Assembly (NCBI GenBank): GCA_016218495.1
Contig: JACRDU010000035.1
Span: forward strand, 1-36,598
Reading direction: 5' to 3'
Length of the DNA: 36,598 nucleotides
Source: Elusimicrobiota bacterium
GTDB lineage: Bacteria > Elusimicrobiota > Elusimicrobia > UBA1565
Of the stretch, positions 1-32,531 are shown piece after piece. A program made the position numbers and the translations under genes. The notes under the pieces are model-generated. The model saw only the letters and a list, made by a program, of their open reading frames with translations, was not told the origin of the DNA and ran no database searches. Every line of letters starts with the position of its first letter. Positions within the stretch are counted from its first letter, which is position 1.

Positions 1-479
1 CCCGAGGCGTCCACCTTCACGGCCGCCCCGACGGCCGCGTCGAGCGCGCCGGCCGCCGCCCACGCCGGGGAAGCCTCGGCTCGGGCGCCTTTGCCGTCGC
101 GCCGCCAGAGCTGCAGATAGTTCTCCTCGCGCGGCGAGGGCACGACGAGGGCATAACGCCCCTGCGCCTTATCTGCCAGCGCGGGAGCGCAGGCCTCGAA
201 GCGGGTCAGGCCGACGGCCGGGATGCCCCGGCTCCGGGCCAGCATGTCGCAGAAGGTGACGCCGAGCCTCACGGCGGTGAAGCGCCCGGGGCCCACGACG
301 CAGGCCACCCCGCCCAGGTCGCCCAGCTTCTTCCCGGCCTTCTTGAGGAGGGCTTCCAGCGCCGGCCAGAGGACGGCCTCCGCCGAACGCGCCCTGCGGC
401 GCAGCGCCCAGACGCGCGACCCGTCGCCCAGCGCCAGGGATACGCCTTCGCCCGCCGTGTCCACGCCGAGGATGAGCAC
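1..479 (-). CDS. tsaB: TsaB, t6A tRNA-modification protein (3' part lies outside the window)
   Basis: TsaB is the ASKHA-fold partner of TsaD and TsaE in making N6-threonylcarbamoyl-adenosine at A37 of ANN-decoding tRNAs in the cytoplasm. The minus-strand reading frame starts LILGVDTAGEGVSLALGDG, the usual TsaB opening, and continues with VVGPGRFTAVRLGV (the GPGSFTGLR-like signature) around residue 65 and VGLTRFEA further on. About 159 codons are present, so the C-terminal third or so is missing. The start is a GTG at 479; an in-frame TAG lies two codons upstream, so no earlier start exists. There is no clear Shine-Dalgarno, and the gene begins 7 nt after the stop of the Fic gene. It belongs to the same operon as tsaE, from which the inserted mobile-mystery pair now separates it. 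Confidence 0.9.
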   Translation of the reverse strand, partial: MLILGVDTAGEGVSLALGDGSRVWALRRRARSAEAVLWPALEALLKKAGKKLGDLGGVACVVGPGRFTAVRLGVTFCDMLARSRGIPAVGLTRFEACAPALADKAQGRYALVVPSPREENYLQLWRRDGKGARAEASPAWAAAGALDAAVGAAVKVDAS

Positions 480-486
480 GGGCTAT

Positions 487-1098
487 TTAACCAGTTTGAG
501 GAAGGAACCGGACCGTGTACGCTACCAACGGCCCGAAATCGCCGCCATCGGCTCGGCGCAGCGCCTCAAGATACGCCGTGCGTGCCTCCCCGGCGCCGCT
601 CATCGCTCCGCTCGGCCAGACCGGCAGCGGGTGCCCCTTTACGAAGAGATAGATGTCCGCCATCAGCCGGGCGTGCCGGCCGTTGCCGTTGGAGAACGGA
701 TGGATCCAGGCAAGCCTGTGGTGCAGGCGGGCGGCACGCTCGAGGATCTGCAGGGCGTCGTGCTCTTGCGCGTCCCAGAAGGCGACGTCTCGGCAGAGCT
801 TCTCCACCTCCTCGCGGATCAGGGACGCATCAATCCCGATCGTGAGCGCGCTGTCCCGATAACGGCCCGCCCAGTCCCAGACGCCGTCGAACATGTCCCG
901 GTGCACGCGACGGACGTATTCCTCGCGCAGCCAGGCGGGGGCGCGCCGTTTGCCGCTGCGCAGATGCTTGTTGACCGCCGCGAGGATATTCTCGGTCTCC
1001 GCCGCGTTCAAGTCCCCATAGGTGAGGACGCCGTCGAGCAGCAGGCCGGAGGCCTCCTCTATCGGAGTCGCGCCCTCCGGCACGTCGAAACGGACCAT
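487..1098 (-). CDS. Mobile mystery protein B, Fic/DOC-family protein
   Basis: A 203-residue Fic-fold protein. The Fic core motif HPFSNGNGRHAR lies near residues 137-148, with the upstream helix HRDMFDGVWDWAGRYR typical of this family. Classical Fic enzymes (HxFx[D/E]GNGR) transfer AMP or other nucleotides to a hydroxyl side chain. Here the metal-binding acid of the motif is Asn, so the chemistry may differ. Family knowledge: it is nearly always encoded directly after an HTH 'mystery protein A', as here, in a toxin-antitoxin-like pair found on mobile DNA. I start it at the ATG at 1098, which overlaps the upstream stop as TGATG and has GGAGGA just before it; a GTG at 1101 would add one residue. 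It lacks the long N-terminal inhibitory helix region of the other Fic protein in this window. Its target cannot be told from sequence. Confidence 0.87.
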   Translation of the reverse strand: MVRFDVPEGATPIEEASGLLLDGVLTYGDLNAAETENILAAVNKHLRSGKRRAPAWLREEYVRRVHRDMFDGVWDWAGRYRDSALTIGIDASLIREEVEKLCRDVAFWDAQEHDALQILERAARLHHRLAWIHPFSNGNGRHARLMADIYLFVKGHPLPVWPSGAMSGAGEARTAYLEALRRADGGDFGPLVAYTVRFLPQTG

Positions 1099-1565
1099 CA
1101 CTCCTCCCAGATTTCGGAGGAAGGTTCGCGAAGCATGCGTTCTTCCTCCGCCCTGATGAGGCGGTCGATCATCGCGGTTTCCGGGATCTGTTTCTCCAAC
1201 GCCATCGTACCCGCCACACGCGCCACCTTCTTGCGCGCGGCCATCGCGATGCGCTCCGCCACGATGGCTGAAGGCGTTTTCGGGAAACGAGGGACGACCA
1301 GCAAGCCCCCCCCCAGCGCATTGAATATCTTGCGCAGGGTTTTCACCTTCAAGTCCACTTTTCCCATCTCGATGACCGCCACATGGGATTGCGGCAAGCC
1401 CGCGCGCCGGGCAAGTTGGGCCTGGGTCATGCGCAACGCATGGCGGAGCAGGCGTATGAGTGCTGAAATCTCAAAATTCTCTATATTTTCAGGCGCTTTT
1501 TTACCGTAAGAAACGATTTTCTCTAAGAGGAGCTCGCTGGAAACGGGCAATCGATTTCTTTTCAT
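1098..1565 (-). CDS. Mobile mystery protein A, HTH regulator paired with the Fic gene
   Basis: A 155-residue protein with an Xre/Cro-type helix-turn-helix at about residues 40-75 (MTQAQLARRAGLPQSHVAVI, then GKVDLKVKTLRKIFNALGG). The C-terminal signature ARKKVARVAGTMALEKQ is diagnostic of mobile mystery protein A. By family knowledge it is the presumed antidote and autorepressor for the Fic partner; by inference it binds the 12-bp inverted repeat over its own promoter. A GTG at 1589 would give 163 residues, but the promoter's predicted transcription start (about 1586) lies downstream of that GTG. The ATG at 1565, preceded by AGCAGG, is therefore the better start. The gene and its upstream region are visibly more AT-rich than tsaE or tsaB, fitting horizontal arrival. 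Confidence 0.87.
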   Translation of the reverse strand: MKRNRLPVSSELLLEKIVSYGKKAPENIENFEISALIRLLRHALRMTQAQLARRAGLPQSHVAVIEMGKVDLKVKTLRKIFNALGGGLLVVPRFPKTPSAIVAERIAMAARKKVARVAGTMALEKQIPETAMIDRLIRAEEERMLREPSSEIWEE

Positions 1566-1592
1566 CTGGGGCCTGCTGCCAAGCGACACCTT

Positions 1593-1621
1593 ATTTTAAT
1601 ATGTCAAACAATATTTGTCAA
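1593..1621 (-). promoter_or_regulatory. Near-consensus sigma-70 promoter of the mystery A/B pair
   Basis: On the minus strand, TTGACA (1621-1616), a 17-nt spacer and TAAAAT (1598-1593) form an almost perfect housekeeping promoter. Predicted transcription starts near 1586, giving a leader of about 20 nt before the ATG at 1565. It lies in a strongly AT-rich patch unlike the rest of the operon, so it probably came in with the cassette. Confidence 0.75.
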
Positions 1622-1647
1622 TACATATAAAATCGTGTTTGACATAT
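1599..1647. promoter_or_regulatory. 12-bp inverted repeat, probable operator of mystery protein A
   Basis: ATATGTCAAACA at 1599-1610 and its exact reverse complement TGTTTGACATAT at 1636-1647 face each other across 25 bp. A third partial copy of the half-site, TGTCAA, at 1616-1621 is the -35 box itself. The left arm fills most of the -10/-35 spacer, so a protein bound here would block the promoter. Autoregulation by the HTH protein is the inferred role. Confidence 0.6.
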
Positions 1648-1661
1648 ATTATTGCCACGGC

Positions 1662-2117
1662 TCACCGCAGCCTGGCTAGCAGCGCCGCCGCGCGGGGACC
1701 ATGGGCCCGGGCGCTCAGGCTGCGCCCGTCGGGACGGTGTCCGAGGACGACGTCGAGGCGGTCCGACGGCAGCAGGGCGCCCGCGTTCTCGGCCCACTCG
1801 ACGACGCAGACGGCCGCTTCGTCGGCGAAGTAATCCTCCAGGGCCAGGCCGGGAAGGTCCTCGGGGCCGGCGCGGTAGAGGTCCATGTGGTAGACCGGCG
1901 GGACCAGCCGCCGGTATTCGTTGACCATGGCGAAGGTCGGGCTGGGCACGGCCCCGCGATGTCCCAGGGCGCGAATGACGCCGCCCGCCAGCGTGGTCTT
2001 GCCCGCGCCGAGCGGGCCGTGCAGGGCGACCGTCATCGGGGCGCGCAGGGCCCTTCCCAGGCGGGAGGCGAAGGCCAGCGTCGCCGCCTCATCGGGCAGG
2101 GTCAGATGGACCGTCAT
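1662..2117 (-). CDS. tsaE: TsaE, ATPase of the t6A tRNA-modification complex
   Basis: A 151-residue P-loop protein, normal length for TsaE. The Walker A motif is GPLGAGKTT (about residues 34-42), followed by PSPTFAMVNEY and the conserved YHMDLYR segment, with VVEWAEN near residue 106 as the C-terminal TsaE signature. It binds TsaB-TsaD and hydrolyses ATP to reset the threonylcarbamoyl transferase after each cycle. The ATG at 2117 follows the nnrD stop by 6 nt, so it is co-transcribed. In many bacteria tsaE is directly followed by tsaB; here about 1.2 kb of foreign DNA lies between them. Confidence 0.93.
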   Translation of the reverse strand: MTVHLTLPDEAATLAFASRLGRALRAPMTVALHGPLGAGKTTLAGGVIRALGHRGAVPSPTFAMVNEYRRLVPPVYHMDLYRAGPEDLPGLALEDYFADEAAVCVVEWAENAGALLPSDRLDVVLGHRPDGRSLSARAHGPRAAALLARLR

Positions 2118-2123
2118 GGGCCG

Positions 2124-3032
2124 CTACGCCCCCAGGCGGCGGAAGGCCTGAGGCAGGGATTCGAGCACGTCCGAGGCCAGCAGGCAGCGCGTGGTCCAGC
2201 GCTTGACGGCCTCGTCGGCGGCATAGCCGTGCAGATAGGCGCCCAGACAGGCCGCCTCGAAGCCGGAGTCCTGCGCGTCGACGGCCAGGCGCTGGGACCA
2301 CAGCCCCGTGATGAGGCCGGTCAGCAGGTCGCCGGTCCCCCCCTTGGCCAACCCCTCGTTGCCCGTGGGGTTGAGCCAGGCGCGCGCGCCGTCGGTGACG
2401 ACGGTCTTGCGCCCCTTGAGCAGGCAGACTCCGCCCAGCTCGCCGACCAGCTCCCGCGCCGAGCCGGAGCGGTCGGCCTCGACCTTCTCCACCTTGGTCT
2501 TGAGGAGCCGGGCCGCCTCGCCCGGGTGCGGCGTGAAGAGCACCGGGGCCTGGCGGGTCTTGAGGAGGGTCCGGACCTCCGCGCGCGGGTGGAGCGCCAG
2601 GAGGTTCAGCGCGTCGGCGTCCAGGACGGCAGGGACCTTGATGCTGGCCAATACGCCCAGCACGGCGCGCCCGGTCTCCTGGGTGGCTCCCAGCCCGGGA
2701 CCCATGGCGACGGCGGTGAAGCCGCGCTTCTCGTGGGCGGAGAGCAGGAGGGCGACGGCGTCGGCGCGCAGCGACCCGACCGAGGTCTCCGGGAGCCCCA
2801 AGGTCATGGCCTCCGGGAACAGCCCGGCGACCACATGCTGCTGGGAGGACGGCACCGCCACGGTGACGAGGCCGGCCCCGGCGCGCAGCACGCCGCGCGC
2901 GCACAGGACGGCCGCCCCGGTCATCCCGCGCGAACCGGCCACGACCAGGGCGTGGCCGAAGTCCCCCTTGTGCGAGTCCCGCGGCCTCTTCGGGAGCCAG
3001 CCGCGCAGCTCGGACATCGAGAAGTCGGTCAT
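2124..3032 (-). CDS. nnrD: ADP-dependent (S)-NAD(P)H-hydrate dehydratase
   Basis: A 302-residue ribokinase-fold enzyme (YjeF C-terminal/CARKD family) that dehydrates damaged NADHX and NADPHX back to NAD(P)H using ADP. Visible signatures: GDFGHALVVAGSRGMTGAA near residue 23, AMGPGLG, LDADALN, FTPHPGEAARL, LLKG and the C-terminal NPTGNEGLAKGGTGDLLTG loop. The YjeF N-terminal epimerase domain (NnrE) of the common fused form is absent, so this is the stand-alone dehydratase. The ATG at 3032 overlaps the acpS stop (ATGA). A longer open frame runs upstream to 3239, but that is acpS sequence read in another frame. Confidence 0.92.
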   Translation of the reverse strand: MTDFSMSELRGWLPKRPRDSHKGDFGHALVVAGSRGMTGAAVLCARGVLRAGAGLVTVAVPSSQQHVVAGLFPEAMTLGLPETSVGSLRADAVALLLSAHEKRGFTAVAMGPGLGATQETGRAVLGVLASIKVPAVLDADALNLLALHPRAEVRTLLKTRQAPVLFTPHPGEAARLLKTKVEKVEADRSGSARELVGELGGVCLLKGRKTVVTDGARAWLNPTGNEGLAKGGTGDLLTGLITGLWSQRLAVDAQDSGFEAACLGAYLHGYAADEAVKRWTTRCLLASDVLESLPQAFRRLGA

Positions 3033-31487: not shown

Positions 31488-32531
31488 TCATGCTTGTTTT
31501 TTCAACAGATACCTGAGCTGGTTGGTGGCACCCTCCGAAACCAATAGGCCCGCTGCCACAAGCTCTCTGAGCTCCCTCTGCAGCGTACGGCGGGTCACCC
31601 CTTTGCACATCCCCTCGATCTCATGGATCGTAAGGCTGCCCTTTTCCATAACATGCTGGAAAACCTTGCGCTGCCTGGCGTTGAGGGGATGCCGGCGCGT
31701 CAACAGGTCTGCCTTGATAATCCGCTCGCCATGCTCCTGGACCTCCCGCATCTGGGTGGCCAAGCCGTCCGTGAAGTATTCAAGCCAGCCGGTCATGTCC
31801 ATGCCCTTAGCCCGGTCGCCTTGGATGGCCTTGTAGAAAGAGGTCCGGTCACGGTCGTAGTATCCGCTGATTGTGAAAAGGCGCTTGAAGTCATAGCCCT
31901 TGCGGTAGAGGCAGAGGGTGGAGAGCAGACGCGAGGTCCGGCCGTTCCCGTCATCAAAGGGGTGGATGTGGACGAGCTGGAATTGCGCGATGCCCGCCTC
32001 CAGCACCGGATTTACGCCATGCTCCGATTGCAGCCACTTCACCAGGCCCCCCATCAGGCCGGGGACCTCGACCGGGGGCGGCGGGGTGTAGATGACCTGC
32101 TTGGTCTTGGAATTGACCACGAAGTTCTGGCCTCTGCGATACTGGCCGGGAGAGGCCTTGTCGCCGCGCACCCCCTTGACGAGGCGCTTGTGGATTTCGC
32201 GGACCAGCGCCTCGGTGATGGGCTCGCCGTTATCGAGGTATTCAGTCACGAGGTAGAACGCCTCGCGGTAATTGAGCAGTTCACGGGCATCGTCGGGGTC
32301 GGCTCCCGGGACCTTCTTCCCGGCGAGGAGCCTTTCGGACTCCTCGAGGGTCAGATGCGTGCCCTCGATGTGGGTGGTATGGTGGGCTTCCAGGACCAAG
32401 GCCCGGTTCTGCATCTCGGAGATCCAGTCCTCGGAGAGCTTGGCCGCTTCCAGGAATCCGCGCGCACGCTCGATTTTCGTCAGAGCGGCGGCGAGGGCGT
32501 TCGTAATCGCGAACTTCGGGGAGAAGCTCAT
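31488..32531 (-). CDS. Fic-family protein with class II inhibitory motif and C-terminal winged helix
   Basis: 347 residues. The N-terminal Fic_N part carries the auto-inhibitory motif TTHIEG ([S/T]xxxE[G/N]) near residue 52. The catalytic motif is [12 protein letters not shown] near residue 193, with all key residues (His, Asp, Asn, Arg) intact, so AMPylation activity is expected. The flap region is [19 protein letters not shown]. The C-terminal 80 residues form a winged helix ([31 protein letters not shown]), suggesting DNA binding and autoregulation. The ATG at 32531 overlaps the stop of a 32-codon stub of the ABC ATPase gene (ATGA). It lies inside an ABC exporter operon, flanked by 62-bp repeats, and is an evident insertion. 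The target is unknown. Confidence 0.92.

Follow-up and report, generated by a model that had tools for sequence, protein, structure and literature searches.

The window analyzed here is a stretch of 36,598 nucleotides from a 4.1-Mb Elusimicrobiota assembly of 165 contigs. At its beginning, the tRNA-modification (t6A) genes tsaE and tsaB lie on the minus strand, separated by two genes that encode a protein with a helix-turn-helix (HTH) domain and a Fic protein. In the order in which the minus strand is read, the features of this locus are as follows:

1662-2117, minus strand: tsaE (TIGR00150, 113.4 bits against a cut-off of 60.1; PF02367)
1662..1665, minus strand: GTGA at the tsaE stop, opening a 15-codon mini-ORF today (read from the sequence)
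1656..1662, plus strand: CACGGCT, proposed edge motif, copy 1 (present; match not above chance)
1630..1647, minus strand: outer arm of an inverted repeat, candidate mmA operator and left limit of the sequence in common with the G046 and G022 cassettes (18-nt arms, 89% complementary)
1593..1621, minus strand: sigma-70-like promoter, TTGACA-17-TAAAAT (11/12 matches; 1 found against 0.3 expected)
1599..1616, minus strand: inner arm of the same inverted repeat (18-nt arms, 89% complementary), within the promoter
1098..1565, minus strand: mmA, HTH antitoxin-like, 155 aa from the ATG at 1565 (TIGR02612, 56.6 bits; TIGR03070, 41 bits; start codon by alignment)
1098..1101, minus strand: GTGA in which the mmA stop overlaps the mmB start (read from the sequence)
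487..1101, minus strand: mmB, Fic protein with a HPFSNGNGRHAR motif (TIGR02613, 157.1 bits against a cut-off of 124.4; PF02661; fold match to VbhT, EcFicT and FICD)
477..484, plus strand: CACGGGCT, proposed edge motif, copy 2 (present; match not above chance)
3..479, minus strand: tsaB, N-terminal 159 aa, truncated at the contig end (TIGR03725, 93.4 bits; GTG start at 479)

Profile matches and the sequence itself bear out the gene order tsaE, HTH gene, Fic gene, tsaB given by the first-pass annotation, as well as its assignment of the two middle genes to the mobile mystery A/B type, a known and little-studied family. The product of mmB passes the curated cut-off of TIGR02613. TIGR02612 is the best family for mmA (E = 2.7e-15, model positions 29-150 of 150) and is matched at E ≤ 0.001 by 21 of the 21 members of our alignment A2; since the score lies below the curated cut-off of 122.6 bits, we refer to this gene as mmA-like. 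The GTGA overlap places mmA directly upstream of mmB, an order that is identical in the other listed pairs, and an alternative mmA start (GTG at 1589) precedes the expected transcription start. The GTG of tsaB lies 7 nt downstream of the mmB stop. A profile search of the same genome detected no further mmB match over the cut-off, and the tsaB at 3..479 is its sole tsaB-model match over the cut-off. The description of the pair as AT-rich did not hold: the flanks have a GC content of about 70-76% and mmB of 67-68%, while mmA drops from about 62 to 50% and values below 50% are confined to the promoter region.

We then compared the tsaE-tsaB junction across relatives. In a first set of 57 genomes, ours among them, a search detected tsaE in 54, and the N-terminus of tsaB was readable downstream in 42 of these (41 relatives plus our own), the other 12 having either no tsaB found or a contig end. 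The tsaB start overlaps the tsaE stop by a 4-nt NTGA in 28 of the 41 readable relatives, among them all six readable same-family relatives (G001, G002, G003, G005, G006 and G007). Among 80 further genomes of the class, tsaE was found in 73, and in every one of these tsaB lies nearby, with contig and strand shared (73/73) and gaps of up to 315 nt as estimated from profile coordinates. These counts confirm that the two genes are normally contiguous, as had been proposed. The mmA/mmB pair occurs in one of the 115 junctions examined in Elusimicrobiota, that of the window. As this is its sole occurrence, the pair is not ancestral at tsaE-tsaB; its insertion between the two genes is well supported and derived at that place. 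No empty site from the same species or a near strain was found for the window, whose nearest relatives are about 62-63% identical in tsaE. The end of tsaE reads CGGTGA, which contains a GTGA of the overlap kind usual in the family, and since an NTGA overlap is found at that spot in 6/6 same-family relatives, the GTGA at 1662..1665 is probably what remains of the tsaB start that once overlapped tsaE. An in-frame ancestor would then read GTGAGC followed by GTGCTCATC.

Inserts of at least 400 nt are present in four of the 115 junctions, and their content varies. Besides mmA/mmB in our genome, they comprise a Phd/YefM antitoxin gene with a ParE toxin gene, where the tsaB ATG follows directly after the ParE stop (G050, locus L060), a methyltransferase gene with other sequence (G041, locus L039) and 459 nt with no clear gene (G028). 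By eye, the G041 insert also has a fragment resembling the DNA-binding end of a response regulator. It should be noted that the control junction upstream of tsaE has unusual spacing in 11 of 42 genomes and is not a simple adjacency, so the presence of two toxin-antitoxin (TA) type pairs among 115 junctions is given as an observation only.

Across the phylum, mmB was detected over the cut-off in 20 of 340 genomes, with a patchy distribution. The mmB of the window is most similar to those of G022 (74% identity), G046 (71%), G027 (69%) and G234 (68%), and is less similar to those of the same-genus G002 (56%) and the same-family G004 (54%). G022 and G046 are members of another family than the window genome, and the tsaE identities run the other way (62-63% to G001 and G002; 43% to both G022 and G046). 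Judged from these identities, the pair is horizontally acquired, since mmB is closest to copies from another family, in the reverse of the tsaE order. As a separate observation, three pairs of genus g74 (L098, L113 and L114, in G264, G248 and G258) have truncated or broken mmB frames next to an intact mmA, which suggests repeated loss of the toxin gene.

The limits of the cassette were delineated by nucleotide similarity. Similarity to the G046 cassette covers only positions 1647 to 500 of the window, and the similarity to G022 spans a similar range in two pieces. Position 1647 is the outer operator arm, and position 500 is 13 nt short of where the mmB stop codon ends. No similarity between the window and the G046 and G022 cassettes was reported outside that range, so operator, mmA and mmB make up the common unit. 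The G032 pair adjoins an ABC transporter gene, and G055 has both flanks (93% and 86% identity) without the pair. Comparison of the two showed that the occupied site lacks about 30 nt of the empty one, among them the final codons of the ABC transporter gene, which are replaced; the left-flank identity stops in a GTTGCAT stretch and the right-flank identity restarts within the stop codon of mmB. The reading frame that follows the pair in G004 begins directly at the mmB stop, and no syntenic empty site for this pair was found among seven family genomes searched. The G046 pair comes to its end 1 nt short of the stop codon of a convergent gene, recognized from its sequence as an apparent Lrp/AsnC type. 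G046 was dropped as a second empty-site case, because its upstream neighbors vary between relatives and leave the empty site undefinable. Neither a transposase nor a terminal repeat nor a credible target duplication was observed for the cassette, which fits illegitimate or replacement-type recombination.

Two further observations concern the surroundings of these insertions. In G025 (L181), an mmA with no accompanying mmB is found close to an ABC transporter locus akin to the insertion site of G032, as either a solitary regulator or a decayed pair; with its rearranged neighborhood and missing mmB, it was rejected as an equivalent of that site. In addition, a short stretch around ACCATACGATCGAGGG...AAAAGTTGCAT recurs beside small reading frames in L107 (G032), L177 (G055) and L181 (G025) and matches many places in genus g10, possibly as a common promoter or repeat.

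The layout of promoter and inverted repeat upstream of mmA is kept in four other cassettes, and mmA is predicted to bind this repeat over its own promoter and thereby to regulate the pair. No terminator-like sites were found in positions 1-3000 of the window, so transcripts of tsaB probably have two origins, read-through out of the operon upstream and the promoter of the pair. The tsaB start has no evident ribosome site, which, together with the 7-nt spacing from the mmB stop, suggests that tsaB is translated by re-initiation after mmB. The strong promoter-like site, the spacing and the lack of terminator-like sites are thus consistent with the earlier proposal that tsaB now lies behind the promoter of the Fic pair, a coupling in which the autoregulatory part is a prediction.

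Structural models were obtained for both proteins. The model predicted for mmB, with a pLDDT of 88.7, matches Fic structures, among them those of the class I toxins VbhT, EcFicT and Fic-1; residues 1-26 are mostly coil, and a helix follows at 27-45. The Fic motif has the form HxFx(D/E)GNGRxxR, and in the class I scheme the inhibitory (S/T)xxxE(G/N) helix resides in the partner protein, not in the toxin. No conserved (S/T)xxxE(G/N) motif was seen in the mmB alignments. In the HPFSNGNGRHAR motif of mmB, an N replaces the D/E in 18/18 (alignment A1) and 13/13 (alignment A4) aligned members, with the rest of the motif kept. Because AMPylating Fic enzymes usually have D/E at this position, the type of reaction catalyzed by mmB is uncertain.

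The mmA model (pLDDT 88.3) consists of an HTH and a long helix ending just before E124. Beyond the HTH, residues A110, M121, E124, Q126 and W153 are invariant in 21/21 phylum members, and A110, M121, L123, E124, Q126 and W153 are invariant in 13/13 members of a set comprising six sequences of the phylum and seven plasmid-borne ones, with identities down to 17%. An invariant M-x-x-E-x-Q and a Trp thus lie outside the HTH. The segment T120-M-A-L-E124-K resembles the Fic-inhibitory motif; E124 in it is invariant, the S/T and G/N positions are variable, and the hits shown for mmA included no VbhA-type family. As a lead only, E124 is possibly a Fic-inhibiting glutamate. A second Fic gene in the window (31488-32531, minus strand) encodes HPFDDGNGR together with an IEG motif that resembles an inhibitory segment within the protein itself, and by eye lies between same-strand frames resembling an FtsX-type permease and an ABC ATPase.

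The locus shares with known mobile mystery A/B pairs (TIGR02612/TIGR02613; rhizobial and Agrobacterium plasmids) the A-then-B order of overlapping or abutting genes, the NGNGR Fic motif, the HTH partner and a patchy spread, and differs from them in its place within the tsaE-tsaB operon and in its diverged mmA. Class I FicTA systems (VbhTA, EcFicTA and Fic-1/AntF) likewise combine a Fic protein with a separate upstream partner gene, and their chains are matched by the mmB model; here, however, an HTH protein of about 155 aa takes the place of the partner, the motif carries N instead of D/E and no VbhA-type Pfam family appears among the hits shown. The HTH of mmA matches structures of HipB/HigA-type antitoxins, from which mmA differs by its long C-terminal part with the invariant M-x-x-E-x-Q and Trp; HipB/HigA-type antitoxins pair with other toxins. 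In the open-licence literature searched, we found neither a study of mobile mystery A/B function nor a report of TA genes between tsaE and tsaB.

Taken together, mmA/mmB is most likely a type II toxin-antitoxin unit, and we consider it likely that the locus arose when a horizontally acquired mmA/mmB cassette of this kind became established at the tsaE/tsaB overlap and coupled to tsaB. In this scenario, a minimal operator/promoter-mmA-mmB cassette would have landed at the overlap with the tsaE stop codon retained, leaving tsaB to be read from the GTG at 479, probably by re-initiation. Bound to the inverted repeat, mmA would also hold mmB, a putative Fic nucleotidyl-transferase, inactive, and loss of mmA would free it, while tsaB would probably draw its transcript from both sources. 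That the pair is instead vertical in this lineage at tsaE-tsaB and was lost from relatives appears extremely improbable: G002 and G004 do have the pair, yet at other genome positions and in copies less alike than those from another family, and it is absent from every other junction of the 115. The first-pass annotation had explained the edges by a short target duplication, and both words, CACGGCT and CACGGGCT, exist as written (AGCCGTG and AGCCCGTG when read on the coding strand). Removal of the cassette with one copy does put the tsaB GTG 3 nt past the tsaE stop, as read directly from the sequence, and thus yields a workable junction. The longest exact word that AGCCGTG and AGCCCGTG have in common is, however, 5 nt (CCGTG), and CACGG is found 72 times on one strand of the window and 53 times on the other. 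Random pairs of 28-mers from the window reached the observed edge score in 64% of cases (61% with a cheap gap), base shuffles in 37%, and windows narrowed to 16-18 nt around the edges in 19%, so the motif cannot be told from chance. The duplication would also leave 7 nt from the overlapping GTG to the tsaB GTG and thus put the two out of frame, so that a start without overlap, 3 nt past the stop of tsaE, would be required, a gap found in 0/6 same-family genomes, where the 4-nt overlap is usable in 6/6. Given that G032, compared with the empty site of G055, showed replacement without duplication, and that the cassettes have neither terminal repeats nor flanking sequence in common, a transposition-like insertion with target duplication is very unlikely, and neither the edge motif as a signal nor the duplication is retained.

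A harder alternative to set aside is a chance landing without consequence for tsaB, in which a selfish or decaying pair is tolerated only because tsaE and tsaB stay readable. The mixed content of the four large inserts and the mmA without mmB in G025 speak for it, whereas in the window neither reading frame is broken, and the Fic motif and the invariant residues of mmA are preserved; we regard this as possible, if somewhat doubtful. An extension of the coupled-cassette reading goes further: mmA/mmB would be a class I-like Fic TA in which a single protein would bind the operator and also insert the inhibitory glutamate (the invariant E of M-x-x-E-x-Q) into the active site of the Fic protein, carried as a recombinase-free operator-to-stop cassette that, independently of an unrelated Phd-ParE pair, settled in tsaE/tsaB, where translational coupling to tsaB, an essential gene, would make deletion costly. 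As a whole, this extension is speculative and on balance unlikely.

As it stands, the locus adds one unusual site to the places where a pair of this known type is found, and its residual interest lies in the candidate mechanism of the pair and in the second TA pair (Phd-ParE, in G050) at tsaE/tsaB. If the inhibitory-glutamate reading is true, a widely annotated gene pair would gain a concrete mechanism and a single-residue test; and if TA pairs repeatedly settle at the overlaps of essential genes, this would give them a simple route to becoming hard to delete without plasmids or integrases.
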